From contig JAHCBA010000031.1 of the NCBI GenBank assembly GCA_019634625.1, positions 1-64,000 of the forward strand: a stretch of 64,000 nucleotides of DNA, in the 5' to 3' direction. Positions 5,898-59,345 of this stretch are shown here, piece after piece. Numbering within the stretch: the stretch's first letter is position 1; each line of letters opens with the position of its first letter. Origin of the DNA: Verrucomicrobiia bacterium (lineage in GTDB: Bacteria > Verrucomicrobiota > Verrucomicrobiia > Limisphaerales > CAIMTB01). The notes under the pieces were generated by a model. It did no database searches. It was not told where the DNA came from and saw only the letters and a program-made list of their open reading frames with translations. The position numbers and the translations under genes were made by a program.

Positions 5898-6146
5898 GAG
5901 GGGTCGGAGGTCGGAGGTCGGAGGTCGGAGGTCGGAGGTCGGAGGTCGGAGGTCGGAGGTCGGAGGTCGGAGGTCGGAGGTCAGAGGTCGGAGGTCAGAG
6001 GTCGGAGGTCGGAGGTCGGAGGTCGGAGGTCGGAGGTCGGAGGTCGGAGGTCGGAGGTCGGAGGTCGGAGGTCGGAGGTCGGAGGTCGGAGGTCGGAGGT
6101 CGGAGGTCGGAGGTCGGAGGTCGGAGGTCGGAGGTCGGAGGCTAGA
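5898..6146. repeat. Tandem heptamer array (GGAGGTC), about 34 copies
   Basis: An almost uninterrupted run of the 7-mer GGAGGTC fills the space upstream of the CMP-sugar synthetase; two or three units read GGAGGTCA/GAGGTC variants. With two GG runs per unit, the plus strand could form two-tetrad G-quadruplexes. Predicted peptides such as (EVGGRRS)n are repeat translations, not proteins. Confidence 0.97.
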
Positions 6147-6159
6147 TTGCCAGGATATT

Positions 6160-6275
6160 TTGCCTTCCGCCCTCCGTCTTCGTCCTCCGTCTTCCGTCCT
6201 CCGTCTTCTGTCTTCCGTCTTCTGTCTTCCGTCTTCCGTCCTCTGTCTTCCGTCTTCCGCCCTCCGTCTTCAGTT
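6160..6275. repeat. Heptamer array of CCGTCTT/CCGTCCT units
   Basis: About 16 imperfect 7-mers of the CCGTCTT/CCGTCCT/CTGTCTT type end directly at the stop codon of the four-helix-bundle gene. The reverse complement (GGAGGAC/GGAAGAC) differs by one or two bases from the GGAGGTC array immediately to the left, so the two arrays form a large imperfect inverted repeat. Confidence 0.93.
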
Positions 6276-6655
6276 CATTTTGGGCAAAACTTCGAGGGAT
6301 TAGCCATCATGGTGCCCAGCATGCGCCCGATCTCACGGCACTCCTCGGTAAGGAGTGCATGCTGGTCCGGCGACAGGTAGTCGCAAGCCTGGGCAGTGTC
6401 GAGCCAGTGCTGAACCTCCGCCTGTTCACCATCGCAATCGCAGAGCTTGCTGAGGAAATGAGCCTCGTAACGGCGTCGCGCCCATGCCTCGGCGAGGTTC
6501 GCTCCGATGGATCGTGAGGCGCGACGCATTTGATCGCTCAGGGCGTATCGTTCCTCCCGGGGAAAGCCCTGAGTGACGCGGAATATCTCCTGCTGCAAGC
6601 GAAACGCCCGCTGATAGATCCTCAGATCCCGAAACGACCGAATGACCTCCCCCAT
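6275..6655 (-). CDS. Four helix bundle protein (S23/IVP family)
   Basis: The 126-residue protein opens with IRSFRDLRIYQRAFRLQQEI and contains RASRSIGANLAEAWAR and LSKLCDCDGEQAEVQHWLDT. These are the hallmarks of the S23 ribosomal/four helix bundle protein family (TIGR02436), often encoded in 23S rRNA intervening sequences and related in fold to the Avd accessory protein of diversity-generating retroelements. Here it stands alone, with no rRNA or reverse transcriptase in the window. It is bounded on both sides by heptamer arrays, and its stop codon lies at the edge of one. The cellular role of free-standing members is unknown. Confidence 0.88.
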   Translation of the reverse strand: MGEVIRSFRDLRIYQRAFRLQQEIFRVTQGFPREERYALSDQMRRASRSIGANLAEAWARRRYEAHFLSKLCDCDGEQAEVQHWLDTAQACDYLSPDQHALLTEECREIGRMLGTMMANPSKFCPK

Positions 6656-6679
6656 CCCACGCCTCCCCTCATCGCAAGC

Positions 6680-6905
6680 ACCCCCCTCCGTCCTCCGCCC
6701 CCCGCCTTCCGTCCTCCGCCCTCCGCCCTCCGCCCTCCGCCCTCCGCCCTCCGCCCTCCGTACTCCGTACTCCGTCCTCCGTCCTCCGCCCCCCGCCTTC
6801 CGTCCTCCGCCCTCCGTACTCCGTACTCCGTCCTCCGTCCTCCGCCCCCCGCCTTCCGTCCTCCGCCCTCCGTCCTCCGTCCTCCGCCATCAGTCCTCCG
6901 TCCTC
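6680..6905. repeat. Heptamer array of CCGCCCT/CCGTCCT/CCGTACT units
   Basis: About 30 degenerate 7-mers lie between the start of the four-helix-bundle gene and the aldolase gene. The array encroaches on the aldolase 3' end: its last few codons and TGA stop (6890-6892) lie within repeat units. A second-order pattern (blocks ending in CCGTACTCCGTACT) recurs twice, suggesting block duplication. Confidence 0.93.
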
Positions 6906-7702
6906 CCCCCCGCGGACTCCAGTTCACGGTGCGCCAGGAATCCCTTCAGTTTCGCCACGCCAGCCTGGCAGGTGTGGAGCAGCATGGTGATATCGAGGCT
7001 GTAGGCCAGGAACCGGTACCCTTCGTGTGCGCGGGCGATTAGTTCGTCCGTGTTCGGTTGCACCACATGAATTCCGGGGACCACCCCCTTCTCCTGACAG
7101 GCATGAAGGATGCGGTCGCGCGCCTGGATGTATTCCGGATGATCGAACTGGGCGGTGATCCCCATCGAGGCCGTCAGGTCGTACGGCCCGATGAAGGCGG
7201 CATCGATGCCCGGCACGGAAAGGATGTCGTGGATGTTGTGGACGCCATCGATGTGCTCGATCTGGACGGCGGTCAGGATCTCGTGGTTGGCCTGCTTGTA
7301 CTCCTCGCTGACCCGCACCCCGAACTGGTTGGCGCGGCAGAACCCGACGCCCCGACGCCCTTCGGGAGGATACTTCACGGCGCTGACGAGGAGTTCGGCG
7401 TCGGCCCGGGTGTTGATCAGCGGACAGATCACCCCGCGGGCGCCGGCATCCAGGTACCGCTTCACGAGGGCGTAATCCACGCCGTGCAACCGCACGATCG
7501 GCGCGCAGGACGAACTGCCCGCGGCGACCGCCTGAAAGAGCGTCTGGGCCTGGGGAACATCCACCGCCGAATGCTCGGCATCGACACATACGAAGTCGAA
7601 CCCGCTGGCGGACATGAGTTCGGCGATGATGGGCGAGCCCGAATTGCACCAGGTGCCGACGACGGTGTGACCGGAGCGGAGTTTGGAGCGTAGGTTTTTC
7701 AT
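6890..7702 (-). CDS. HpcH/HpaI family aldolase (2-keto-3-deoxy sugar acid aldolase type)
   Basis: From ATG 7702 the protein is 270 residues. It carries the class II HpcH/HpaI signature: GTWCNSGSPIIAELM, FDFVCVDAEHSAVD, ARGVICPLINTRADAE, AVQIEHIDG and GIDAAFIGPYDLTASMG. The EH and E-x-D residues of these motifs form the divalent-metal pyruvate-binding site. Family members cleave or form 2-keto-3-deoxy acids such as 2-keto-3-deoxy-L-rhamnonate or 4-hydroxy-2-oxoheptanedioate; the substrate here is unassigned. Its start overlaps the stop of the EpsI-like gene by 4 nt. A longer frame upstream of the ATG is antisense-like and not real coding. The C-terminus (GGRTED) is built from repeat units. Confidence 0.88.
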   Translation of the reverse strand: MKNLRSKLRSGHTVVGTWCNSGSPIIAELMSASGFDFVCVDAEHSAVDVPQAQTLFQAVAAGSSSCAPIVRLHGVDYALVKRYLDAGARGVICPLINTRADAELLVSAVKYPPEGRRGVGFCRANQFGVRVSEEYKQANHEILTAVQIEHIDGVHNIHDILSVPGIDAAFIGPYDLTASMGITAQFDHPEYIQARDRILHACQEKGVVPGIHVVQPNTDELIARAHEGYRFLAYSLDITMLLHTCQAGVAKLKGFLAHRELESAGGRTED

Positions 7703-11159: not shown

Positions 11160-11640
11160 TTCCCGCCCTGGCGTCCTGGCGTGAGGAACGGGGTCTTTCG
11201 AGTACGAGTACCGCCCTTCGGGCTGAGTACGAGTACGAGGACGACGGATGGGTGAGTTCAGTTGTGGAGTCTCACGCGAAGACGCGAAGACGCGAAGGAA
11301 TCCTGACTGGAGACAGCGAAACCTGATTTCCTTCACTCTCCATTCCCTTTGCGTCTTGGCATCTTGGCGTGAGGAACGGGGCTTTTCGAGTACGAGTACC
11401 GCCCTGCGGGCTGAGTACGAGTACGAGGACAGCGGATGGGTGGGTTCCTTTGCGGATTCTCACGCGAAGACGCGAAGGCGCGAAGGAATCCTGACCGGAG
11501 GCTGCGACACCCGATTTCCGTTACCTGCGGGCTTCTTTGCGTCCTGGCGTCCTGGCGTGGGGAACGGGGCTTTTCGAGTACGAGTACCGCCCTGCGGGCT
11601 GAGTACGAGTACGAGGACAGCGGATGGGTGGGCTTGTCCT
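11160..11640. repeat. Long inverted-repeat elements (GCGAAGACGCGAAG family), cluster A
   Basis: Successive units of about 190 bp fill this otherwise gene-free interval. Each has a left arm CTCACGCGAAGACGCGAAG, a 50-60 nt centre, and a right arm of the type GCGTCTTGGCGTGAGGAACG. The arms are near reverse complements, so each unit can fold into a long hairpin. Units are joined by a second small palindrome, GAGTACCGCCCTGCGGGCTGAGTAC. Right arms end at about 11190, 11375 and 11560; left arms start near 11271 and 11459. Confidence 0.9.
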
Positions 11641-12214: not shown

Positions 12215-12615
12215 TCGCTTTGCCTCCTGGCGTGAGGAACGGGGCCTTTCGAGTACGAGTACGACGTGTGGGTGAGTTCCCTTGCGGTTTCTCACGCGAA
12301 GACGCGAAGACGCCAAGGAATGCAGACCGGAGGCTGCAACACCCGATTTCCGTTATCTGCCATCTCCTTTGCGTCTTGGCATCTTGGCGTGAGGAACGGG
12401 GCCTTTCGAGTACGAGGACGGCGGATGGGTGAGTTCAATTGCGGATTCTCACGCGAAGACGCGAAGACGCCAAGGAATCCTGACCGGAGGCTCCGACACC
12501 CGATTTCAGTTACCTGCCATCTCCTTTGCGTCTTGGCGCCTTGGCGTGAGGAACGGGGCTCTTCGAGTACGAGTACCGCCCTACGGGCTGAGTACGAGTA
12601 CGAGTACGATGCATG
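12215..12615. repeat. Long inverted-repeat elements (GCGAAGACGCGAAG family), cluster B
   Basis: Two further complete units, with left arms at about 12292 and 12451 and right arms ending near 12250, 12405 and 12560. They have the same architecture as the cluster at 11160-11640 and the same GAGTACCGCCC...GGGCTGAGTAC joint. Nothing else is recognised between the lone MNT gene and the HEPN gene apart from the heptamer array that follows. Confidence 0.9.
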
Positions 12616-12644
12616 GATGAATTCCGTCTTCTGCCTTCCGCCTT

Positions 12645-12722
12645 CAGGTTTCAGGTTTCAGGTTTCAGGTTTCAGGTTTCAGGTCTCAGGTCTCAGGTCT
12701 CAGGTCTCAGGTCTCAGGTTTC
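12645..12722. repeat. Heptamer array (TTTCAGG/TCTCAGG)
   Basis: About eleven 7-mers of TTTCAGG and TCTCAGG run into the 3' end of the HEPN gene; the gene's TGA stop (12714-12716) is one of the units. On the minus strand the unit reads CCTGAAA, so TGA recurs every 7 nt. Confidence 0.95.
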
Positions 12723-13217
12723 AGCTTCGCCCCGGTTCGATAGCTCTCGAAGGAATGCCGCGAAGCGGTCCAGGTCTGCGCTGAGGAGGGGCAGGGCCTG
12801 TTCGAATTTGCGCCGGACGAATTCGAGACGGTCCCAGTCGTAATGGAACTCGAAGTAGTACCGCTTGAAGTGCCGGAAGCGCAGGAGTTCGTCCAGGAGT
12901 TCACGGGTGGCCGGGCCAATGGCCCGGGCACGGATGCCGGGCACTTCCAGGCTCATGCGGTCCAGCAGTTCCCGGTGCCACTTTTCACGGGCCAGGGAGT
13001 TCTCGAAGTGCTGGGAGATACGGACAAAGACGGTCTCCAGGCAGGTGTAGAAGGTCACCAGGACATCCGCGAGGACGATGGCCTGCTCGGTGGTTCTGGA
13101 TTCGATCGTGCCCCAACGCGCGGCCTGCTCACGATAAAACGCCGCGATCCGTTCCATGACGGACCGGCCCTGATCGATCTCAGCCAGCAGCAGGGCGATC
13201 CGTGGTTCCGCGCTCAT
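12714..13217 (-). CDS. HEPN domain (HepT-like) protein with degenerate active site
   Basis: The 167-residue all-helical protein contains HFENSLAREKWHRELLDRM and LLDELLRFRHFKRYYFEF, the layout of HepT-like HEPN toxins. In this family the RNase motif is Rx4HxY. Here the aligned positions read R115-HFKR-Y120-Y-F122, so the catalytic His is Tyr and the final Tyr (the residue AMPylated by MntA) is Phe. The protein is probably inactive as an RNase, or has a changed role. It overlaps its MNT partner gene by 38 nt. It resembles the second HEPN protein at 14648-15145 over the segment FENxxxxxxxWHRELLD, so the two pairs are related. Confidence 0.78.
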   Translation of the reverse strand: MSAEPRIALLLAEIDQGRSVMERIAAFYREQAARWGTIESRTTEQAIVLADVLVTFYTCLETVFVRISQHFENSLAREKWHRELLDRMSLEVPGIRARAIGPATRELLDELLRFRHFKRYYFEFHYDWDRLEFVRRKFEQALPLLSADLDRFAAFLRELSNRGEAET

Positions 13218-13575
13218 ACACCAGCACCCCTTTTCTTCGAATCAGCCCGGCGAACTCCGGCTCGATCCGTTCCAATGCCACCAGGTCCAGCGGCAGATCC
13301 GTGAGGCGGTCGGCCATCCCGAACATCGCCGAGAACGTCGCCGGATCGGTGACTCCCTCGACGGCGAGGTCGATGTCGGAACGCTCCGAGAACCGGGACC
13401 GGTCCAGCAGCGAGCCCCACTGGTAGAGCCGCAGCGGCCGGTAGTCGGCAAGGATCCGATCCACGATGCGCCGGAAGTCCGTCCATGCCCGTTCAAAGCG
13501 CCGGTCGAGTCCCTCCTGACGCTGTCGTTCCTTCGCCTCAAGGAACGCGCGGGCCTGCTTCGTGCTGACGGGCAT
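13180..13575 (-). CDS. MNT-type nucleotidyltransferase, partner of HEPN protein
   Basis: The 131-residue protein carries the nucleotidyltransferase signature YQWGSLLDRSRFSERSDIDL (GS...SDID) at about residues 49-68. Beta strands typical of MntA antitoxins follow (LPLDLVALERIEPEF, RKGVLVYE). It is the first gene of the pair and overlaps the HEPN gene. By analogy with HepT-MntA of Shewanella it would neutralise the toxin by AMPylation; this particular HEPN protein lacks the target tyrosine, so that function may be lost. A short GGCGAGT heptamer run lies 30 nt upstream. Confidence 0.78.
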   Translation of the reverse strand: MPVSTKQARAFLEAKERQRQEGLDRRFERAWTDFRRIVDRILADYRPLRLYQWGSLLDRSRFSERSDIDLAVEGVTDPATFSAMFGMADRLTDLPLDLVALERIEPEFAGLIRRKGVLVYERGTTDRPAAG

Positions 13576-13601: not shown

Positions 13602-14580
13602 GGGCGAGTGGCGAGTGGCGAGTGGCGAAATGGGGGGGCTGTCATCCGCCAGCTTCTTTGCGTCCTGGTGTCCGGTGCATCCCGGAGTTGTAGGTGAGGA
13701 GGGAGCCAATCGGAGGGACGAGCTCCGCGAGTCCTCAATCCCATTGCACCCCCCCTTTCCTCATCCTCGGGACTCGTACTCAGCCCGAAGGGCGGTACTC
13801 GTACTCGTTCTCGTCCTTGAACCCGCAGGCACACCGTTTCAGCGTCGCCTCATGGCGGGTCCGATGGGTGCGATCGTGTTCGGACCTCCCATTCCGCATG
13901 CGAACAAGGCAGGGAGATTAAGATTAAGATTAAGATTAAGATTAAGATTAAGATTAAGAGGACGAGGCCTGCTGCGAATCGCTGAGATGCACTGGCAGCA
14001 GGGCGGGGATGTGGGGGGCGGGGCAGAGGCTGGGTCGGACTCTGTTGGGTGTGCACGCTTTAGCGTGTCGGGGGCAGGTTTGGGAGGCTCACGCTGAAGC
14101 GTGGACACCCAACGCTCCCTCTGATCCCACCCCTCCGCTTCACCCTTCAGAGGGACGAGCTCTGCGAGTCCGCAGTCCATTGCTCCACTCCCTTGCGGCC
14201 TCGTGGAACTCGGCCCTCCGATTTCACCACCCCGTTTCACCTTTCGGAGGGACGAGCTCCGCGAGGCCGCAATCCATTGCTCCACACTTTTTCCCCCTCC
14301 TCGGGACTCGTACTCAGCCCGAAGGGCGGTACTCGTACTCGTTCTCGAACCCGCAGGCACACCGTTTCAGCGTCGCCTCATGGCGGGTCCGATGGGTGCG
14401 ATCGTGTTCGGACCTCCCATTCCGCATGCGAACCGGGCAGGGAGATTAAGATTAAGATTAAGATTAAGATTAAGAGGACGAGGCCGGCGGATGGGTGGGT
14501 TCCGTCTTCCGCCTTCTGCCCTCAGGTTTCAGGTCTCAGGTTTCAGGCTTCAGGCTTCAGGCTTCAGCCTTCAGCCTTCC
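13602..14580. repeat. Mosaic repeat island: heptamers, REP-like units, hexamer arrays, hairpins
   Basis: There is no gene between the two HEPN/MNT pairs. In order the stretch holds: GGCGAGT heptamers (13602-13640); one half REP-like unit GGAGGGACGAGCTCCGCGAG (near 13717); a composite element starting GGGACTCGTACTCAGCCCG at about 13770 with a seven-copy AGATTA array (13915-13957) and a palindromic CACGCTTTAGCGTG segment; two REP-like units (14146-14285); a second composite element (14301-14490) with a five-copy AGATTA array; and a TCAGG heptamer array (14521-14580). Confidence 0.9.
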
Positions 14581-14647: not shown

Positions 14648-15145
14648 TCAAGGTGGCTTGGGTGCGTCGCCGATAAGAAACTCGCAGAAGCGTTCGAGGG
14701 CCTCCTCGAATGCCCGGACGTCGCCCAGCCATCGTTCGGCGAGCTGGATCACACGACCGGGATCCAAAGTGAAATCGTAGCTGTGACGAAAGATGTGCCG
14801 GAAGCCGCGGAGATCGTTGGCGAGTCCTCGATGCCCCTCGGGAAGTACCGCGGGCCGCCACCCGTCGATGGGCAGGAACATTTTGTCGAGGAGTTCTCGA
14901 TGCCATCGGCCGCGATCCACCACGTGATTCTCGAAGGTGCGTGAGACCTGTTCGAACGAGTTTTCGAGCGCGTTGTAGAGGTTGTGCAACAGGTAGGCGG
15001 CGGCCGCGCAGTTCCGGAACTCCCGCGGGTCCGCTTTCAGAGCCGCCACGGACGTTCGCAATTCCTCCGACAACCGCCCGATCGATTCGATATCGTGCCT
15101 CAGGACCGCACACAGGCCTGCGCGGGCGGCGGGATCAGGCTTCAT
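14648..15145 (-). CDS. HEPN domain toxin (HepT-like) with intact Rx4HxY motif
   Basis: From ATG 15145 the protein is 165 residues, all helical, with FENHVVDRGRWHRELLDKMF and the RNase motif R116-HIFR-H121-S-Y123. This satisfies the HepT consensus Rx4HxY, so it should be a functional RNase-type toxin whose Tyr123 can be AMPylated by its partner. The start overlaps the end of the nucleotidyltransferase gene by 11 nt. A longer frame upstream of this ATG is read through antisense to the partner gene and is not used here. Stop 14648 is about 15 nt from a duplicated HEPN fragment. Confidence 0.82.
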   Translation of the reverse strand: MKPDPAARAGLCAVLRHDIESIGRLSEELRTSVAALKADPREFRNCAAAAYLLHNLYNALENSFEQVSRTFENHVVDRGRWHRELLDKMFLPIDGWRPAVLPEGHRGLANDLRGFRHIFRHSYDFTLDPGRVIQLAERWLGDVRAFEEALERFCEFLIGDAPKPP

Positions 15146-15449
15146 AGAGCAACCGTCCGTGATCGAGGATCTGACTGCGGAGGAGGGGCGAGGCGTCCTC
15201 GATACGGACCAGATCGACCGGACCGCGCAGGAGAGAGTCCAGCCGCGACCAACCCCCGTACAGGGCATCGGGAGCCAGCCCCGCCACGGCAAAGTCGAGA
15301 TCGGATCGCCAGTCGAGGCGCCATCCCCGGACCGCCGATCCGAAGAGCCATACCTGTCGGACACCGGGCTGGGCCGAGAGGAATTGCACCGCCCGCGCGA
15401 TCTCCTCCTCCAGTTCGCCCGGGGATAGCAGACCGAGATCCTCTTTCAT
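15135..15449 (-). CDS. MNT-type nucleotidyltransferase antitoxin (MntA-like)
   Basis: From ATG 15449 the protein is 104 residues with the motif VWLFGSAVRGWRLDWRSDLD (GS...SDLD, about residues 34-53). It ends with VDLVRIEDASPLLRSQILDHG, a common C-terminus of MntA-type antitoxins. It should inactivate the neighbouring HEPN RNase by AMPylation. Gene order antitoxin-toxin with a short overlap is typical. An ATG further upstream would add a proline- and arginine-rich tail with no family similarity, so the internal start with CTCTTTC(ATG) spacing is preferred. Confidence 0.82.
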   Translation of the reverse strand: MKEDLGLLSPGELEEEIARAVQFLSAQPGVRQVWLFGSAVRGWRLDWRSDLDFAVAGLAPDALYGGWSRLDSLLRGPVDLVRIEDASPLLRSQILDHGRLLYEA

Positions 15450-15601: not shown

Positions 15602-16438
15602 TCACGCCTCGGCCAGGCGCCGTTCCGCCCTGAGGATGAGCCAGGCCAGCGCGGCGAGCCCGGCGGCGGTGAACATCAGCACGCTCCAGCCCGCGGCGTC
15701 ATGGACCACGTCAATGGCATCCACCCCGCGTCGCGCCGCGGTGATGGAGAGGTAGAGGGACCGCCCGAAGTTGCCGACCACCGCCAGGGCCACGCCGACC
15801 ACCAGGAACAGCACCTTGGCGCCGCCGCGCCGGAAGGTGAGATCGGCAATGAACAGGGCGGCCATGATGCTGGCCTGCAGACTGCGAATCCCGCTGCACG
15901 CTTCGTCCACACCGACGGCGCCCTGGGGCAGTTGAATGACGTTGCCGGTTCGGAAGGCGGGAATGCCGAGGAGATTGAGGGCCTCGACGTTGAGCACGGT
16001 GATGAAGCCCTGGAGTCCGAGCACCACGGGGTTCCAGAGCAGCCGCGGAATGGGCACCGCGACGAAAAGGAAGAGGATCGGAAAAGCGAAGCGGCGCGCC
16101 ATGGGCGCGCCGTGCTGGAGCCAGATCAGTGCGAGCAGGAACCCGGTACAACCCAGACTGAGGGCGAAGCTCGATGCGGCCGTGCTGGCCACCGCGTGTT
16201 TGTGCAGTTCGGCCACGAGGACCAGCGGCATCGAGAACAGTGCCAGGAGGAGCGGCCCCCAGGCGGAAGCGGGCGGCTCGGACGCCGGCCGGGTGGGCCA
16301 TCGTTCCCAGGCGAGATAGGCGGCCAGGGGCACGACCAGCCAGCCGTGCTGGAATTCGACCAGCGCACGCCAGTGAACCTGGAGATCGAGCACCCACCAG
16401 CCCAGGACCAGGGCAATTGGCAAATGGCGCAAAAACAT
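15602..16438 (-). CDS. Exosortase
   Basis: From ATG 16438 the protein is 278 residues with about eight membrane helices. The exosortase catalytic residues are visible: EACSGIRSLQAS (Cys181), GNFGRSLYL (Arg226) and VVHDAAGW (His246). Exosortases cut PEP-CTERM-type sorting signals at the inner membrane and pass the proteins to exopolysaccharide-linked surface display. The matching EpsI-like protein (7699-8451) and a CPBP/CAAX-type protease (28220-28927) are in the same locus. No substrate with a PEP-CTERM tail was found in the window. The gene is flanked by the antitoxin gene (150 nt gap) and a REP-like array. Confidence 0.9.
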   Translation of the reverse strand: MFLRHLPIALVLGWWVLDLQVHWRALVEFQHGWLVVPLAAYLAWERWPTRPASEPPASAWGPLLLALFSMPLVLVAELHKHAVASTAASSFALSLGCTGFLLALIWLQHGAPMARRFAFPILFLFVAVPIPRLLWNPVVLGLQGFITVLNVEALNLLGIPAFRTGNVIQLPQGAVGVDEACSGIRSLQASIMAALFIADLTFRRGGAKVLFLVVGVALAVVGNFGRSLYLSITAARRGVDAIDVVHDAAGWSVLMFTAAGLAALAWLILRAERRLAEA

Positions 16439-16487
16439 TTCTGAATGTGTCGAATCGTGAATCGGGGATCGGAGCGGCTCCTCTTTT

Positions 16488-17138
16488 CGGAGGGACGAGC
16501 TCCGAGAGGCTGCAATCCATTGCACCACTCCCCTGTGGCCTCGTGGAACTCGGCCCTCCGATTTCACCACCCCGCTTCACCCTTCGGAGGGACGAGCTCC
16601 GCGAGTCCTCAATCCATTGCTCCACTCCCTTGCGGCCTCGTGGAACTCGGCCCTCCGATTTCACCATCCCGTTTCACCCTTCGGAGGGACGAGCTCCGCG
16701 AGTCCTCAATCCATCGCACCCCTCTCCTGCGGCCTCGTGGAACTCGGCCCTCCGATTTCACCACCCCGCTTCACCCTTCGGAGGGACGAGCTCTGCGAGT
16801 CCTCATCCCACCGCTCCACTCCCTTGCGGCCTCGTGGAACTCGGCCCTCCGATTTCACCACCCCGCTTCACCCTTCGGAGGGACGAGCTCTGCGAGTCCT
16901 CAATCCATTGCTCCACTCCCTTGCGGCCTCGTGGAACTCGGCCCTCCGATTTCACACCCCCGCTTCACCTTTCGGAGGGACGAGATCTGCGAGTCCTCAT
17001 CCCACCGCTCCACTCTCCTGCGGCCTCGTGGAACTCGGCCCTCCGATTTCACCACCCCGCTTCACCTTTCGGAGGGACGAGCTCTGCGAGTCCTCATCCC
17101 ACCGCTCCACTCTCCTGCGGCCTCGTGGAACTCGGCCC
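16488..17138. repeat. 97-bp tandem REP-like array, seven units
   Basis: Unit starts (CGGAGGGACGAGCTC) fall at 16488, 16585, 16682, 16779, 16876, 16973 and 17070, exactly 97 bp apart. Each unit contains an imperfect hairpin: CTCGTGGAACTCGGCCCTCCGA, a 22-nt spacer, and TCGGAGGGACGAGCTCTGCGAG as its near reverse complement. This is the organisation of a REP/BIME cluster. The last unit stops at 17138, where the RAYT module begins. Confidence 0.96.
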
Positions 17139-17147
17139 GGAACTCCG

Positions 17148-17648
17148 CTATGAAGCATCGTGCCACATCAGCGGATGCACCTCACCCTTCCATTGCCAAG
17201 AGTCGACATCCTTCACCAATCCAGCCCGAACAGGATTCTCCATCACATAGAGCCACTTCTGTGAGTAGCTCTCACCACTGCGGAGTTGCCTATCGAAGAA
17301 ATCCTTCTGCCAGATGGGCTTATCCTCCGGCCAAGGCCAGCTCCGAGTTACACCAGAGCGCCACCATTGCATCCACGACTTGAGGGGTGCGGATGGCAAT
17401 CGTTTGGGCGCACAAAAGAAGTGCATATGGTCGGGCATCAAGAGGTACCTGCCGACCAGCCATTCCCCATCACCCGACCACACCCGCATAATCGCCTCGG
17501 CTGCCTGCTGTCGTGCGAGCAAGGGACGTCGGTTCCGGACAACCTGGGTGACATAGATGAGTATCGTCTGGTTGTGAAACCCCAGCGGCGCAAGGTGCGG
17601 AAGCGCAATGCGCCTGTTCGCATCCGACGGTTGAGCGTCCGACTGCAC
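17148..17648 (-). CDS. REP-associated tyrosine transposase (RAYT, Y1/HUH family)
   Basis: The 166-residue protein carries the HUH motif LMPDHMHFF (His74 and His76) and the RAYT C-terminal signature YVMENPVRAGLV (residues 134-145), preceded by IWQKDFFDRQLRSGESYSQK. The nucleophilic tyrosine is Tyr128 or Tyr134. RAYTs are single-copy, domesticated IS200/IS605-like enzymes that recognise and process REP hairpins. The gene lies inside an array of 97-bp hairpin repeats: seven units to its left and four complete units plus two partial ones to its right. The segment CTGCGGCCTCGTGGAACTCG occurs directly at both module borders. It is intact and of normal family length. Confidence 0.9.
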   Translation of the reverse strand: MQSDAQPSDANRRIALPHLAPLGFHNQTILIYVTQVVRNRRPLLARQQAAEAIMRVWSGDGEWLVGRYLLMPDHMHFFCAPKRLPSAPLKSWMQWWRSGVTRSWPWPEDKPIWQKDFFDRQLRSGESYSQKWLYVMENPVRAGLVKDVDSWQWKGEVHPLMWHDAS

Positions 17649-17671
17649 TTGCTTGGATTATTCAGTACTGT

Positions 17672-18134
17672 GCACCCCTCCCCTGCGGCCTCGTGGAACT
17701 CGGCCCTCCGATTTCACACCCCCGCTTCACCCTTCGGAGGGACGAGCTCTGCGAGTCCTCAATCCATTGCTCCACTCTCCTGCGGCCTCGTGGAACTCGG
17801 CCCTCCGATTTCACCACCCCGCTTCACCTTTCGGAGGGACGAGCTCCGCGAGTCCTCATCCCACCGCTCCACTCTCCTGCGGCCTCGTGGAACTCGGCCC
17901 TCCGATTTCACCATCCCGTTTCACCCTTCGGAGGGACGAGCTCCGCGAGTCCTCAATCCATCGCACCCCTCTCCTGCGGCCTCGTGGAACTCGGCCCTCC
18001 GATTTCACCACCCCGCTTCACCTTTCGGAGGGACGAGCTCTGCGAGTCCTCATCCCACCGCACCCCTCTCCTGCGGCCTCGTGGAACTCGGCCCTCCGAT
18101 TTCACCACGCCACTTCACCCTTCGGAGGGACGAA
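17672..18134. repeat. 97-bp tandem REP-like array, right part
   Basis: Unit starts at 17735, 17832, 17929, 18026 and 18123 keep the exact 97-bp spacing seen on the other side of the RAYT gene. The array runs up to the stop codon of the glycosidase gene (18141). Variation between units is limited to a few alternating bases (CTCT/CTCC, CCTT/TTTC). Confidence 0.96.
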
Positions 18135-18140
18135 CCGGGC

Positions 18141-20336
18141 CTATTCCATCCGCCGCAGGGCGGGTTCCTCGAGTTCGACCAATTGGCCGGGAGCCAATCC
18201 CTGGAACCGGATGGCCAGCCAGCGGGCTTCGGCCATCGCAGGGGCTCCGAAATCACGGTGCCGGGACCAGATGGTCGGCGCGAATTCGCCGAGGCCGGCC
18301 CGGATGGCCAGGCCATCCGCTGGAACCGATTCCAGTTCGCCGTGACGCCATACCTCGCCATGGGCGGTGAACAGAAACGCCTGCGCAAAGGTCGGTGTCG
18401 GCCCCGGCTCGGCGTGGATTCGCGTGGTGAAGACGTCCGATCCCCGCACGATCCCGGGCAGGGCCAGGTAAAACATGGCGTCCCGGTGGGCATCGCCCGG
18501 TTGGCGCACCTCGATGGCCACCCGGTCGGGTTCGATCTGAAAGATCTGGGTGGCGCCGTGCTGTCCCGCACGCGGCACGAGATCCCGCGCGGTGTACCGT
18601 CGCCAGATGGGCGGCGGAGGCAGATCCGGCTCGAATCGCACCGAGGCCGCATCCACCCGGCCCGCCTCGTCCCGCCAGGTGAGGCGCACCCGCCGCGGCT
18701 CCGACGGGAGATCCGGGCGGCGGGTAAATCGGACGGGAATGTCCAGGCGCGCCAGGGGAGCGACTTCCACGGAACCTCCCAGGCTTGGGCCAGGTTCCCG
18801 GTCTGGTCGGGCCTCCCCGCCGGTCGCGGGTCCGGCGCTCCAGCCTTCGGGGGCGTCGATGCGCCAGGTGCCCCGAACCGGACGGTCGGTGAAGTTGCGC
18901 AGTTCGAGACGCGCATCCCCCTTCGTTTCCGCCGCCAGGCGCAGGGACTGACGCGGCTTGTCCTCGGTCCAGGCGTCGCTCATCCGGAGGCGCAGGACGA
19001 CGGGCGACGGTTCCCGGCGGGGCGGCAGGGAGTCGAGTTCGCGTTCGAGGTCGGGCGCGATGCGGGGAGGGGCGCCGAGTTCCCTCCGAAACGGTTCCCA
19101 CCGTACCTCGGCAAGCTGGTAGGGCGCCGGTCCGGTCCGCAGATGGAAGGTTCGTTCCGGGGCCAGATCGATGGCCGGCAATTGGGCGGGATCGAGTAGC
19201 ACCCCGGAATCGAGGCCGAAATGCACAAAGGGCGTGCCTTCCGGCCACGTGACCTCGAGGCGCAGACGTTCGGGAACCGGGGGGTCCATGACCCTCCCCG
19301 GCGGTGCGAGTTCCCTGGGCCTGCCCGGAGACCACAGGACGGACCACCATGCGCCGTCGGGTTCCTCGATCACCAACCCGATGCGGGCACCGGTGGGTTC
19401 ATGGACCAGTGACCAGAGCGGACGACAGCCCGGAATCCGGCCGGCCAGTTGCACGATCGCCAGCAGTGCCGGACGCCATCGTCCTTCGGGATCGGTGAGA
19501 CCGAAGTCGGAGATGACTTCAACGTAGTGGGTGAGAAGAAAGGGGAAGTGTCGCTCCACACCTTCCGCCCAGGACTCGACCAGGGTCCGCTCATGAAACG
19601 CGGCCTGACGATCCAGGTGCCCGGGGTCGGAGGCCAGGGTGACGGGCAACTGGAAATACCCTATCTCGGTGAGCCACCACGGCCCCTCGATCCCGGCAGC
19701 CCGGGCAAAGACGCGATGATGCGCGAGGAAGTCGGTGAAGTCCGCCGCCCAACCGTAGTAGTGGAGGTTGAGTCCGTCGGTCCATGAGGCCAGACCGTTG
19801 TGGGCCAGTTCCAGGGCGTAACGGGCGGGTCGAAAGGCCAGGGACGGCATCAGGACGGGGACCTCGGGACGATCGGTCTTGATGGCCCACCAGGCGGCCT
19901 TGAGGACCGCCGCCATGTCCGCGGCGCTGTTCTCGACGAAGTAGAAGTCCGGTTCGTTGTAGACCTCCCAGGCGTCGGGGGAACGCGGGGCCGGAGGGAG
20001 ATTCGTCCGGCAGGTCCAATACACCGAAAACAGGTCCTGCGGCAGCCGCTCGGGAGGTCGTTGCCGACCGGGTTGGTAATTGCGGACGTCGGCCAGCCAT
20101 CGGAATCCGTTCTCCTTTCCCAGCGGCGACGCCCCGCGGGTCCAATGAAGCCCGGGCCGGCCCGACAGCGACCGGAGCACCTCGAGGGTGTTGGATCCCG
20201 ATCCGCTGATGTGCCCGCCCCACTCAAAGTCAGCACCCGATGCCGCCAGGCCGAACGCCGCGATCAGGGCGCCCGGGACGCGACGCCAAGGAACCCAGAC
20301 CGAAGGCAGAGACGCCCGATTTCCTTCACCCTCCAT
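18141..20336 (-). CDS. Secreted clan GH-A glycoside hydrolase-like protein
   Basis: The 731-residue protein has a hydrophobic N-terminal segment GALIAAFGLAASGADF suggesting a signal peptide. A catalytic barrel has the acid/base glutamate in WEVYNEPDFYF (about residue 129) and a candidate nucleophile in WWLTEIGYF (about residue 215), the usual beta-4/beta-7 pair of clan GH-A enzymes such as GH39/GH5. The C-terminal half is beta-rich. It probably trims or degrades a polysaccharide outside the cytoplasm. The only ATG in frame lies inside a long inverted-repeat element, so the first 15-20 residues (MEGEGNRASLPSVW) are repeat-encoded. The gene also ends 7 nt from the REP array. Confidence 0.72.
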   Translation of the reverse strand: MEGEGNRASLPSVWVPWRRVPGALIAAFGLAASGADFEWGGHISGSGSNTLEVLRSLSGRPGLHWTRGASPLGKENGFRWLADVRNYQPGRQRPPERLPQDLFSVYWTCRTNLPPAPRSPDAWEVYNEPDFYFVENSAADMAAVLKAAWWAIKTDRPEVPVLMPSLAFRPARYALELAHNGLASWTDGLNLHYYGWAADFTDFLAHHRVFARAAGIEGPWWLTEIGYFQLPVTLASDPGHLDRQAAFHERTLVESWAEGVERHFPFLLTHYVEVISDFGLTDPEGRWRPALLAIVQLAGRIPGCRPLWSLVHEPTGARIGLVIEEPDGAWWSVLWSPGRPRELAPPGRVMDPPVPERLRLEVTWPEGTPFVHFGLDSGVLLDPAQLPAIDLAPERTFHLRTGPAPYQLAEVRWEPFRRELGAPPRIAPDLERELDSLPPRREPSPVVLRLRMSDAWTEDKPRQSLRLAAETKGDARLELRNFTDRPVRGTWRIDAPEGWSAGPATGGEARPDREPGPSLGGSVEVAPLARLDIPVRFTRRPDLPSEPRRVRLTWRDEAGRVDAASVRFEPDLPPPPIWRRYTARDLVPRAGQHGATQIFQIEPDRVAIEVRQPGDAHRDAMFYLALPGIVRGSDVFTTRIHAEPGPTPTFAQAFLFTAHGEVWRHGELESVPADGLAIRAGLGEFAPTIWSRHRDFGAPAMAEARWLAIRFQGLAPGQLVELEEPALRRME

Positions 20337-21105
20337 TCTCTTTGCGTCTTTGCGTCTTGGCGTGAGGAACGGGGGCTTTCGAGGTCGAGTACCGCCCTGC
20401 GGGCTGAGTACGAGTACGAGTACGACGCATGGGTGAGTTCAGTTGTGGAGTCTCACGCGAAGACGCGAAGACGCCAAGGAATCCAGACCGAAGGCAGCGA
20501 TGCCGGGCTTCTTTCACCAGGCATTCCCTTTGCGTCTTTGCGTCTTGGCGTGAGGAACGGGGCCTTTCGAGGTCGAGTACCGCCCTGCAGGCTGAGTACG
20601 AGTACGACGCATGGGTGAGTTGGTTTGCGGATTCTCACGCGAAGACGCGAAGACGCGAAGGAATCCAGACCGAAGGCAGCGATGCCGGGCTTCTTTTACC
20701 CGGCATTCCCTTTGCGTCTTTGCGTCTTGGCGTGAGGAACGGGGTCTTTCGAGAACGAGTACGACGCATGGGTGAGTTGGTTTGCGGATTCTCACGCGAA
20801 GACGCGAAGACGCCAAGGAACCCAGACCGAAGGCAGCGATGCCGGGCTTCTCTTACCCGGCATTCCCTTTGCGTCTTTGCGTCTTGGCGTGAGGAACGGG
20901 GGCTTTCGAGGTCGAGTACCGCCCTTCGGGCTGAGTACGAGTACGAGTACGAGTACGACGCATGGGTGGGTGAGTTCAGTTGGGGAGTCTCACGCGAAGA
21001 CGCGAAGACGCGAAGGAATCCAGAACGGAGGCTGCGCCACCCGATTTCCTTCACCCGCCAACTCCTTTGCGTCGTGGGGTCCCGGCGTGAGCCCCAGGCG
21101 CCACG
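20280..21105. repeat. Long inverted-repeat elements (GCGAAGACGCGAAG family), cluster C
   Basis: About five units of 155-185 bp, with left arms near 20454, 20635, 20792 and 20991 and right arms ending near 20368, 20557, 20740 and 20898. Each ends with GAGTACCGCCC(T)GCGGGCTGAGTAC-type joints except the third, where the joint is reduced to GAGAACGAGTACGACGC. The first unit is truncated by, or fused to, the start of the glycosidase gene. Confidence 0.92.
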
Positions 21106-21144: not shown

Positions 21145-21285
21145 TCAGTCCTCAGTCCTCAGTCCTCAGTCCTCAGTCCTCAGTCCTCAGTCCTCAGTCC
21201 TCAGTCCTCAGTCCTCAGGCTTCAGGCTTCAGGCTTCAGGCTTCAGGTTTCCGGTTTCAGGCTTCAGCCTTCAGCCTTCAGGCCC
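21145..21285. repeat. Heptamer array (CAGTCCT then TTCAGGC)
   Basis: Ten tandem CAGTCCT units are followed by about nine TTCAGGC/TTTCAGG/TTCAGCC units. The last units supply the TGA stop (21278-21280) of the YhcH-family gene read on the minus strand. Confidence 0.95.
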
Positions 21286-33707: not shown

Positions 33708-33739
33708 CCCCGCCCCGCCCATGCCTCCACGAGGTGTCG

Positions 33740-34510
33740 GCTGGGGAGACAGCGATTCGGAGGGACTGCACCCTTCGGAGGGACTGCACCCTTCGGAGGG
33801 ACGAGCTCCGCGAGTCCTCAATCCAATGCTCCACTCCCCTGCGGCCTCGTGGAACTCGGCCCTCCGATTTCATCCCCTCGCTTCAATTCGGAGGGACGAG
33901 CTCCGCGAGTCCTCAATCCAATGCTCCCCTCCCCTGCCGGCCTCGTGGAACTCGGCCCTCCGATTTCGCCACCCTGCTTCACCCTTCGGATGGACGAGCT
34001 CCGCGAGTCCGCAATCCATTGCACCATTCCGTTTTCCCATCCCCGGGGACTCGTACTCAGCCCGAAGGGCGGTACTCGTACTCGTCATCGTCCTCGACTC
34101 GCAGGCACACCGTTTCAGCGTCGCCTCATGGCTGGCCCGATGGGTGCGATCGGGTTCGGACCTTTCATTCCGCATGCGAACTGGGCGGGGCGATTAAGAT
34201 TAAGATTAAGATTAAGATTAAGATTAAGATTAAGATTAAGATTAGGATTACGAGTACGGGTACGTGTACGAGGTCTGCTGCAAAACGCTGAGATGCACTG
34301 GCAGCAGGGCGGACACGCGGGGGGGGCAGAGGCTGGGTCGAACTCTGTTCGGTATGCACGCTTCAGCGTTGTCGAGGGCGGAGATGGAAGGCTCACGCTG
34401 AAGCCTGGACACCCAACGGACCCTCCGATCCCACCCCTCCGCTTCACCCTTCGGAGGGACGAGCTCTGCGAGTCCGCAATCCATTGCTCCCCTCCCCTGG
34501 CGGCCTCGTG
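33740..34510. repeat. Mosaic repeat island with REP-like units and hexamer array
   Basis: The gene-free interval is filled by repeats. REP-like units related to the 97-bp family occur at about 33755-34030, some partial; GGACTGCACCCTTCGGAG is repeated at the left end. A composite element follows (34047-34440) starting GGGGACTCGTACTCAGCCCG with an eight- to nine-copy GATTAA array (34193-34245) and a palindromic CACGCTTCAGCG/CACGCTGAAGC segment. A last REP-like unit lies at about 34449-34510. The layout copies the island at 13.7-14.2 kb. Confidence 0.92.
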
Positions 34511-34553
34511 GATCCCGCACCCCATCCGCCGCCTTGAACCCGCCCCGACCCCG

Positions 34554-38184: not shown

Positions 38185-38275
38185 TCGCGGTGCATCCCGG
38201 TATTGTGGGTGAGGAGACAGCGCCTCGGAGGGACGAGCTCCGCGAGTCCTCCTTCCATTGCACCCTTCGATGACA
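38185..38275. repeat. Single REP-like unit
   Basis: GGTGCATCCCGGTATTGTGG, then CGGAGGGACGAGCTCCGCGA and CCATTGCACCC, is a solitary copy of the element also seen at 13670-13760. It lies between the antitoxin and the end of the redox operon. Confidence 0.8.
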
Positions 38276-47374: not shown

Positions 47375-47673
47375 CGTCGGGTACAGTTCGTCTGTTCGCT
47401 CGACCGGGCTCGCTCCCGGCCACGGATCATACCCCGTCACCCTTCCGGCCCCCCGACCCCATCGCTTCCCGTTTCTAGCCCAAGCCTGCCCGTTTCTTGC
47501 TGCAAACCGCCAACGCTGCCTCCTCCCCCACCATTCCAGGATGCACCGCCCCCGCTCATGGTTCCGCCTTCAGGCCTCAGGTTTCAGTCTTCAGGTCTCA
47601 GGTTTCAGCCTTCAGGTTTCAGCCTTCAGGTTTCCCCCCTTGCCACCCCCCGCCCCGGGATCAACCTCAGCCC
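47375..47673. other. Divergent intergenic region with heptamer array
   Basis: This 299-nt stretch separates the start of the redox operon (minus) from the prepilin-like gene (plus) and must contain promoters for one or both. Its right third (47572-47640) is a degenerate TCAGG-type heptamer array (CTTCAGG, TCTCAGG, TTTCAGC). No sigma-70-like boxes could be assigned with confidence. Confidence 0.7.
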
Positions 47674-59045: not shown

Positions 59046-59345
59046 GCGACTCGTACTCAGCCCGAAGGGCGGTACTCGTCCTCGTCCTCGATCCCGCAGG
59101 TGCACCCTTTCGAGCGTTGCCTTGTGGCGGGTGCGATGGGCTCGATCTTGCCCGGCCCTCCCATTCCGCGTGGGAACTGGATCTCAGATTTCACGTTTCA
59201 GGCTTCAGGTCTCAGGCTTCAGGTTTCAGGCTTCAGGTTTCAGGCTTCAGGTCTCAGGCTTCAGGTTTCAGGCTTCAGTTCCCGCCCCTCCCATTCCGCG
59301 TGCGAGCTGGGCTGGGCGATCACGATCACGATCACGAGTACGAGT
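59046..59345. repeat. Composite repeat element with heptamer and hexamer arrays
   Basis: The block begins GACTCGTACTCAGCCCGAAG and carries the same landmarks as the elements at 13770, 14301 and 34047 (GGCGGTACTCGTCCTCG, CCCTTTCGAGCGTTGCCTTG, TGGCGGGTGCGATGGG, CCCATTCCGCGTG). The heptamer array TTTCAGG/CTTCAGG/TCTCAGG (59190-59282) is inserted here, and the hexamer array is GATCAC then GAGTAC (59318-59350). Nothing else is recognised in this part of the 1-kb gap before the dikinase gene. Confidence 0.9.

Follow-up and report, generated by a model that had tools for sequence, protein, structure and literature searches.

The window analysed here, a stretch of 64,000 nucleotides, contains a RAYT gene that lies between two blocks of a 97-bp tandem repeat. 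Do the gene and the repeats belong together, and is it the enzyme that has multiplied the repeats, both around its own gene and across the genome? The subject bears on how RAYTs choose REPs and on whether a RAYT moves REPs at all. Our favoured reading, to which we assign a probability of about 0.85, is a REPtron, a single-copy RAYT with its cognate GGAG-tagged REPs, in which the REPs were amplified in tandem around the gene; a REP dimer was captured separately as the core of an ISKra4-type MITE.

The RAYT gene and its product

The span 16488-18134 of the preliminary description comprises the gene together with its arrays; the gene proper occupies 17148-17648 on the minus strand and encodes 166 residues, with a GTG start and a TAG stop. 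The identification as a RAYT, a TnpAREP-like HUH Y1 nuclease, was borne out by sequence, fold and key residues. The NCBIfam RAYT model NF047646 matches the protein over almost its full length with 72.2 bits, slightly below the curated cut-off of 80, and Pfam Y1_Tnp scores 15.1 against a cut-off of 23. In a phmmer search of the PDB, TnpAREP (4er8) was the only confident match (1.2e-6). The AlphaFold model of the protein (pLDDT 83.9) also has 4er8 as its top Foldseek match (E=3.5e-8), with IS200/IS605 transposases next. The HUH motif H74-x-H76 and the single catalytic tyrosine Y134 are both present. The further key residues are Q114, D119, R120, Q121 and R123, and no variation was seen at H74, H76, Q114, R123 and Y134 in an alignment of RAYT relatives (24 rows). 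The nearest named relatives are from Verrucomicrobia (subdivision 3) MAGs.

One close copy of the RAYT is found in the genome, a 6.74-Mb draft of 88 contigs in which the window belongs to contig 31. The same genome has about 15-18 copies, 90-93% identical, of a ~990-bp element (L007-L017 and further places) that encodes a longer, RAYT-related Y1-type protein; unlike the RAYT, this element is multi-copy. Next to the left array lies an exosortase EpsH-family gene (15602-16444, minus strand), and the arrays sit between co-directional genes. Two neighbouring HepT-like/nucleotidyltransferase (Polbeta) gene pairs of the toxin-antitoxin type are located at 12714-13575 and 14648-15449, also on the minus strand.

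Tandem arrays on both sides of the gene

The left array (16486-17138, plus strand) consists of six complete 97-bp units, which start at 16486, 16583, 16680, 16777, 16874 and 16971, and of a seventh unit from 17068 that is cut after 71 bp. The array ends 9 bp from the RAYT stop codon. On the other side, 22 bp upstream of the RAYT start, there is a half-unit made of the second REP arm and the spacer (17671-17732, plus strand). It is followed by the right array (17733-18133, plus strand), with four complete units from 17733, 17830, 17927 and 18024 and a 13-bp stub (18121-18133). Tandem Repeats Finder reports the left array at 16486-17138 (period 97, 6.7 copies, 92% matches) and the right one at 17672-18133 (period 97, 4.8 copies). 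The layout described from the sequence, with seven units on one side and four complete plus two partial units on the other, is therefore correct once the seventh unit is counted as cut and the partial ones as half-unit and stub. The claim that a segment of the unit borders the module on both sides also holds, the segment being CTGCGGCCTCGTGGAACTCG. A 20-nt arm has 24 matches in the window at up to 3 mismatches, compared with 0.03 expected from shuffles, which places the RAYT inside a 97-bp array far above chance. The array length is that of a draft assembly, in which contig C60 starts inside such an array.

The repeat unit and its hairpins

The 97-bp unit is composed of a 75-bp inverted pair and a 22-bp spacer. 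In the example at 16584-16658 (plus strand), a REPIN-like dimer of 75 bp, arm R (TC-GGAG-GGACGAGCTCCGCGAGTCC) is connected by a 25-nt linker to the inverted arm L, after which the 22-bp spacer follows. Each arm has TC-GGAG and then a 19-nt hairpin, GGAC-GA-GC-TCC-GC-GA-GTCC in one arm type and GGCC-GA-GT-TCC-AC-GA-GGCC in the other. The REP is thus an imperfect hairpin with a GGNC/GNCC stem, a tandem G-A mismatch, a 2-bp upper stem and a 3-nt loop, and the GGAG tag stands directly 5' of the stem. The tandem GA/GA mismatch is invariant between two covarying stems, as in imperfect palindromes with a conserved mismatch (group 2 type). In the window, 28 arms of the three main types carry the GGAG tag in place of the classical GT(A/G)G.

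The hairpin is supported by covariation. In 11 distinct verified arms from seven genomes, all 66 cells of the six stem pairs are paired, and three of the six pairs have changed on both sides. The covariation score was 0.479 versus 0.168 +/- 0.044, a value reached by 0 of 500 shuffles and by no slid version. In 64 arms found by pattern in three other genomes, the pair that the pattern leaves free is paired in 59, with 37 expected. A nearest-neighbour DNA model gives strong folding of the 75-nt dimer (z = -4.2), and the "long imperfect hairpin" of the preliminary description is the right term for this dimer. In the same model a lone arm folds no better than shuffled sequence (z about -0.2), so the support for the single hairpin comes from covariation and not from energy. 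Inverted pairs have the common 51-bp arm offset in 65 of 73 cases. The repeats share with REPINs the inverted REPs, the fixed spacing and a dispersed population, and many of the pairs lie inside MITEs.

Gene and repeats in relatives

Arms of this family flank the RAYT, within tens of bases, in its four nearest named relatives (61, 55, 52 and 47% identity). Naked REP dimers flank the gene at loci L108-L111, in the order arm-gene-arm and at similar distances; at L109 the contig ends inside the 3' arm. GGAG hairpins are found at all RAYTs at least 47% identical to that of the window. RAYT-bearing relatives contain 40 (G103), 85 (G218), 78 (G207), 41 (G237) and 66 (G251) REP arms, with 0 in the reversed control. 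Other families of the order likewise have the REP dimer on its own, both at the flanks of RAYTs and in populations. Since one repeat family adjoins the window RAYT and its relatives of 47-61% identity, the gene and the repeats belong together. The earlier claim that the array is made of the RAYT's own cognate REPs is supported, because the same family with covarying hairpins flanks the relatives and the tag class follows the RAYT tree.

Repeats in relatives that lack the RAYT gene had been named as an observation that would speak against this association. The outcome was divided. The congeners G001-G004 have neither the RAYT nor repeats above noise (0-3 arms each). Genomes G020, G006, G057 and G012 have 14-57 arms each, with no GGAG-type RAYT found in their draft assemblies; G020 and G006 have instead a GTAG-type RAYT with its own GTAG REPs. 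We read the repeats in these four genomes as the result of gene loss or of gaps in the drafts.

The locus resembles the REPtrons of E. coli, Pseudomonas, Stenotrophomonas and Marinomonas (PMC2817692, PMC3116915, PMC8266576, PMC6006769) in its single-copy HUH Y1 gene, its flanking REP hairpins, the 4-nt tag 5' of the stem and the inverted doublets of ~71 bp (here 71-75 bp). It differs from them in its tag, which is GGAG rather than GT(A/G)G, and in having Arg/Thr at the H101 position. A RAYT-like gene flanked by repeats is also the hallmark of the TIRYT/TIRtron (Di Nocera et al., 2013; PMC3733652), whose flanking repeats are long, have no GTAG tag, are in some cases self-complementary and occur in dimers or clusters. 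The repeats of the present locus are instead REP-like hairpins of very high copy number, and where classical REPs have GTAG they carry GGAG as a defined 4-nt tag; this places the locus outside that class. Some of the TIRs in that paper may be GGAG REPs.

Growth of the array

How could the array have formed? By homology to TnpAREP, the RAYT would bind the folded strand and would nick it beside the hairpin. The GGAG tag would be read by the segment Q114-D119-R120-Q121-R123, equivalent to Q95-E100-H101-A102-R104 in TnpAREP. The array may then have been built by repeated cycles of nicking and re-joining beside the RAYT gene, in combination with replication slippage or unequal recombination. Slippage alone could also have sufficed for its growth.

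The strongest rival takes up this last point. It holds that the array is an ordinary minisatellite that arose by replication slippage and unequal crossing-over, with the RAYT inside since REP dimers flanked it and with no part played by the enzyme; we give it slightly less than an even chance. The units are indeed arranged head-to-tail and include the 22-bp spacer, which is not part of a REP. Near-identical units occupy distant positions in the array (L3/R3, 99%), and L6/L7 are also 99% identical. Elsewhere in the genome this spacer recurs in arrays of 2-3 units that have no RAYT. However, among the matches listed no array in the genome exceeds the one at the RAYT, with twelve units against about 3 elsewhere, and RAYTs beside tandem REP arrays of other periods recur. 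Tandem repeats that hold REPs lie close to the RAYTs at L208 (6.4 x 60 bp), L116 (4.8 x 43 and 4.6 x 44 on the two sides), L256, L085, L095, L074, L084 and L214. In P. fluorescens SBW25, REPIN clusters adjoin each RAYT, and tandem REPINs there include flanking sequence (Bertels and Rainey; PMC3116915). The present array is longer, with 12 units in total against four plus one REP in the largest SBW25 cluster, and it lies on both sides of the gene. In Marinomonas, REPs concentrate at the RAYT (PMC8266576). Given the tandem REPs near other RAYTs, the SBW25 clusters and the concentration in Marinomonas, local growth at the RAYT is a recurrent pattern, with enzyme-driven repeated nicking or slippage at hairpins as possible drivers. 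The recurring tandem arrays point to local amplification as a general by-product at RAYT genes.

The GGAG tag and the residue at position 101

The flanks of 102 RAYT loci, a few of which are the same locus twice, were searched for tagged hairpins by a rule that combines tag and stem. When no tag was prescribed, GTAG came out among the commonest four-mers before hairpins on both sides of the gene, and the others near the top were mostly its frame-shifts. Most of the labelled RAYTs outside the GGAG class have a GTAG or GTGG tag. The switch between G and T at the second tag base requires two changes on a tree of 85 RAYTs. Across trees, the tag changes 2-4 times, with only 2-3 independent switches.

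A single alignment column fully separates the two classes, with Arg or Thr in 20/20 GGAG rows and His in 34/34 GT rows, and it is the sole column to do so. It corresponds to H101 of E. coli TnpAREP, a residue that has been discussed, along with Q95, E100 and R104, as interacting with the GTAG guide (PMC6006769; PMC8266576). When 69 RAYTs from across the phylum were held out and their tags labelled by a fixed rule, Thr, Arg or Val stood in 36/36 GGAG rows and His in 12/13 GT rows. The exception, L352, has on inspection repeated GGAG-AT-GTGCTCGGCCTCGAGCAC hairpins, although this is a post hoc re-reading. Over both sets, 46/47 GT-tagged RAYTs have His in this column, and 56/56 GGAG-tagged ones have Thr, Arg or Val. 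According to a published survey (PMC6006769), Arg sometimes replaces H101 in subclasses whose REPs are given as GT[AG]G.

We tentatively propose, at just under even odds, that RAYTs read the second tag base through TnpAREP position 101, with His for T (GTAG/GTGG) and Arg, Thr or Val for G (GGAG). GGAG REPs would then make up a large class, so far overlooked, in Verrucomicrobiota and Kiritimatiellota, and one substitution could switch tag specificity. The competing explanation, only somewhat short of an even chance, is phylogenetic hitch-hiking, in which the residue at H101 would be the signature of a clade whose REPs happen to be GGAG-tagged. As the tree has only 2-3 independent switches, a pair test of tag against residue cannot reach significance, and common descent is statistically compatible with the tag-residue link. 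The neighbouring column 121 also separates the tag classes fairly well (balanced accuracy 0.945). Column 120, the one aligned with H101, is on the other hand the best of all alignment columns over both sets (0.989), corresponds to one of the residues reported to contact the tag in E. coli TnpAREP, and predicted the held-out set.

A literature search for GGAG, RAYT and REP as words together found no paper in the literature searched. RAYTs have been described in REP clusters before, and a MITE with a REP inside it is also on record; what is new, as far as searched, is the GGAG tag together with the residue that covaries with it. With a tag switch coupled to one covarying contact residue, recognition can be framed as a two-by-two exchange of His and Arg enzymes with GTAG and GGAG hairpins.

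Position of the gene in the array

It had been suggested that the gene was inserted with, or captured by, a repeat. In one form of this idea, the RAYT module moved by peel-and-paste insertion into a pre-existing array, which we consider unlikely. The register of the units is interrupted by the gene, with the left unit cut at base 71 and the right side beginning at base 36. However, arm-gene-arm at similar distances is already the layout in relatives, and no gene insertion is needed to explain it. A common unit order on the left and right of the gene was not significant (496/5000 permutations). Growth of the dimers that flanked the RAYT is the better reading of the array.

Dispersed copies and the MITE

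A genome-wide count, as proposed in the preliminary description, found 970 arms at up to 2 mismatches, versus 2 for the reversed control. Dispersed copies were sampled in 1.38 Mb (five contigs, C1-C5). This sample has 99 copies; 52 of them have the full core and both ends of a 163-bp MITE (CGGTGCATCCCGGAGTTGTGGGTGAGG...CTCTCCCCACAACTCCGGGATGCACGG), and nine full cores are without MITE ends. The MITE is flanked by 9-bp target-site duplications, with a mean match of 76% versus 29% for mismatched pairs; the duplication is exact in 14 of 34 full MITE copies and matches at 7 or more of 9 positions in 26 of 34. A plain spread of array units by the RAYT does not account for the scattered copies. Most of them lie in the 163-bp MITE with 9-bp duplications, the mark of a DDE transposase, and an ISKra4-family route appears responsible.

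A 2.2-kb IS in the congener G004 (C12:93-2289; L274+L268) has the same ends as the MITE with few mismatches. It encodes a DruA-like protein (DUF4338, PF14236) and an ISKra4-family transposase, the latter with 154 bits, under the curated ISKra4 cut-off of 205. A 59%-identical copy with matching ends lies on contig C21 of the genome itself (L296, G000:C21), and its transposase frame has one internal TGA. The "long" TIR pairs of the 1.38-Mb sample have no transposase inside. Elsewhere in this genome the REP dimer appears to have been captured as the core of the 163-bp MITE, and the ISKra4-family DDE transposase would have multiplied this element into hundreds of copies independently of the RAYT. 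A precedent for a MITE with TIRs and direct repeats that contains a REP is QMITE2 of Coxiella burnetii, which is ~150-190 bp long with 7-11-bp direct repeats and whose small copies are REP-only (PMC5896051). Unlike QMITE2, the present element is 163 bp long, has 9-bp duplications and a GGAG REP dimer core, and has an ISKra4-family partner with matching ends.

Among 58 relatives searched, the full 163-bp MITE is found only in the genome of the window (G000); in the others the matches are confined to the REP core or to the IS ends. Of the two, the REP dimer is therefore the older and is linked to the RAYT, and within the sample searched its capture by a MITE is peculiar to this lineage. It is very improbable that all repeats of the genome, the array included, descend from the MITE with the RAYT as a chance neighbour. 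In favour of this idea, full MITEs contain most of the dispersed copies, and MITE ends border some of the short arrays (C23:3685, C57:16701). Against it, the array units at the RAYT have no MITE ends, the full element was found in only one of the genomes searched, and naked dimers flank the RAYTs at L108-L111, with REP dimer populations also present in other families of the order. Capture by a MITE thus allows an unrelated DDE transposase to spread hundreds of REPs, and REP copy number alone is no evidence of RAYT activity.

Within the window, the scattered copies reported at 13.7, 14.15-14.3, 33.75-34.5 and 38.2 kb do exist, though not all are array units. Those at 13675-13758 (nhmmer, model positions 1-83) and 38190-38267 are truncated MITE copies with the left end and one REP arm. 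A dispersed short array of 1.5 units lies at 14146-14297, a degenerate MITE left end followed by ~2.5 REP units at 33723-34062, and a single dispersed REP unit at 34451-34517; all five are on the plus strand. The exact 97-bp spacing claimed for the units holds in the arrays at the gene, and at 33.8-34.0 kb the spacing is 95-98 bp. REP arrays at C3:185236, C9:46920 and C26:79957 and at 13.75 and 34.0 kb of the window end in the same other repeat (...CTCGTACTCAGCCCGAAGGGCGGTACTCGTACTCG...). Another repeat family, with a period of 157-188 bp (GGCGTGAGGAACGGGGC...), forms tandem pairs at 11167-11632, 12228-12573 and 20282-20919. Heptamer satellites (GGTCGGA x34, TTCAGGT, TCAGTCC and others) are located at 5902-6910, 12643-12724, 14522-14579, 21145-21284, 47555-47634 and 59190-59278.
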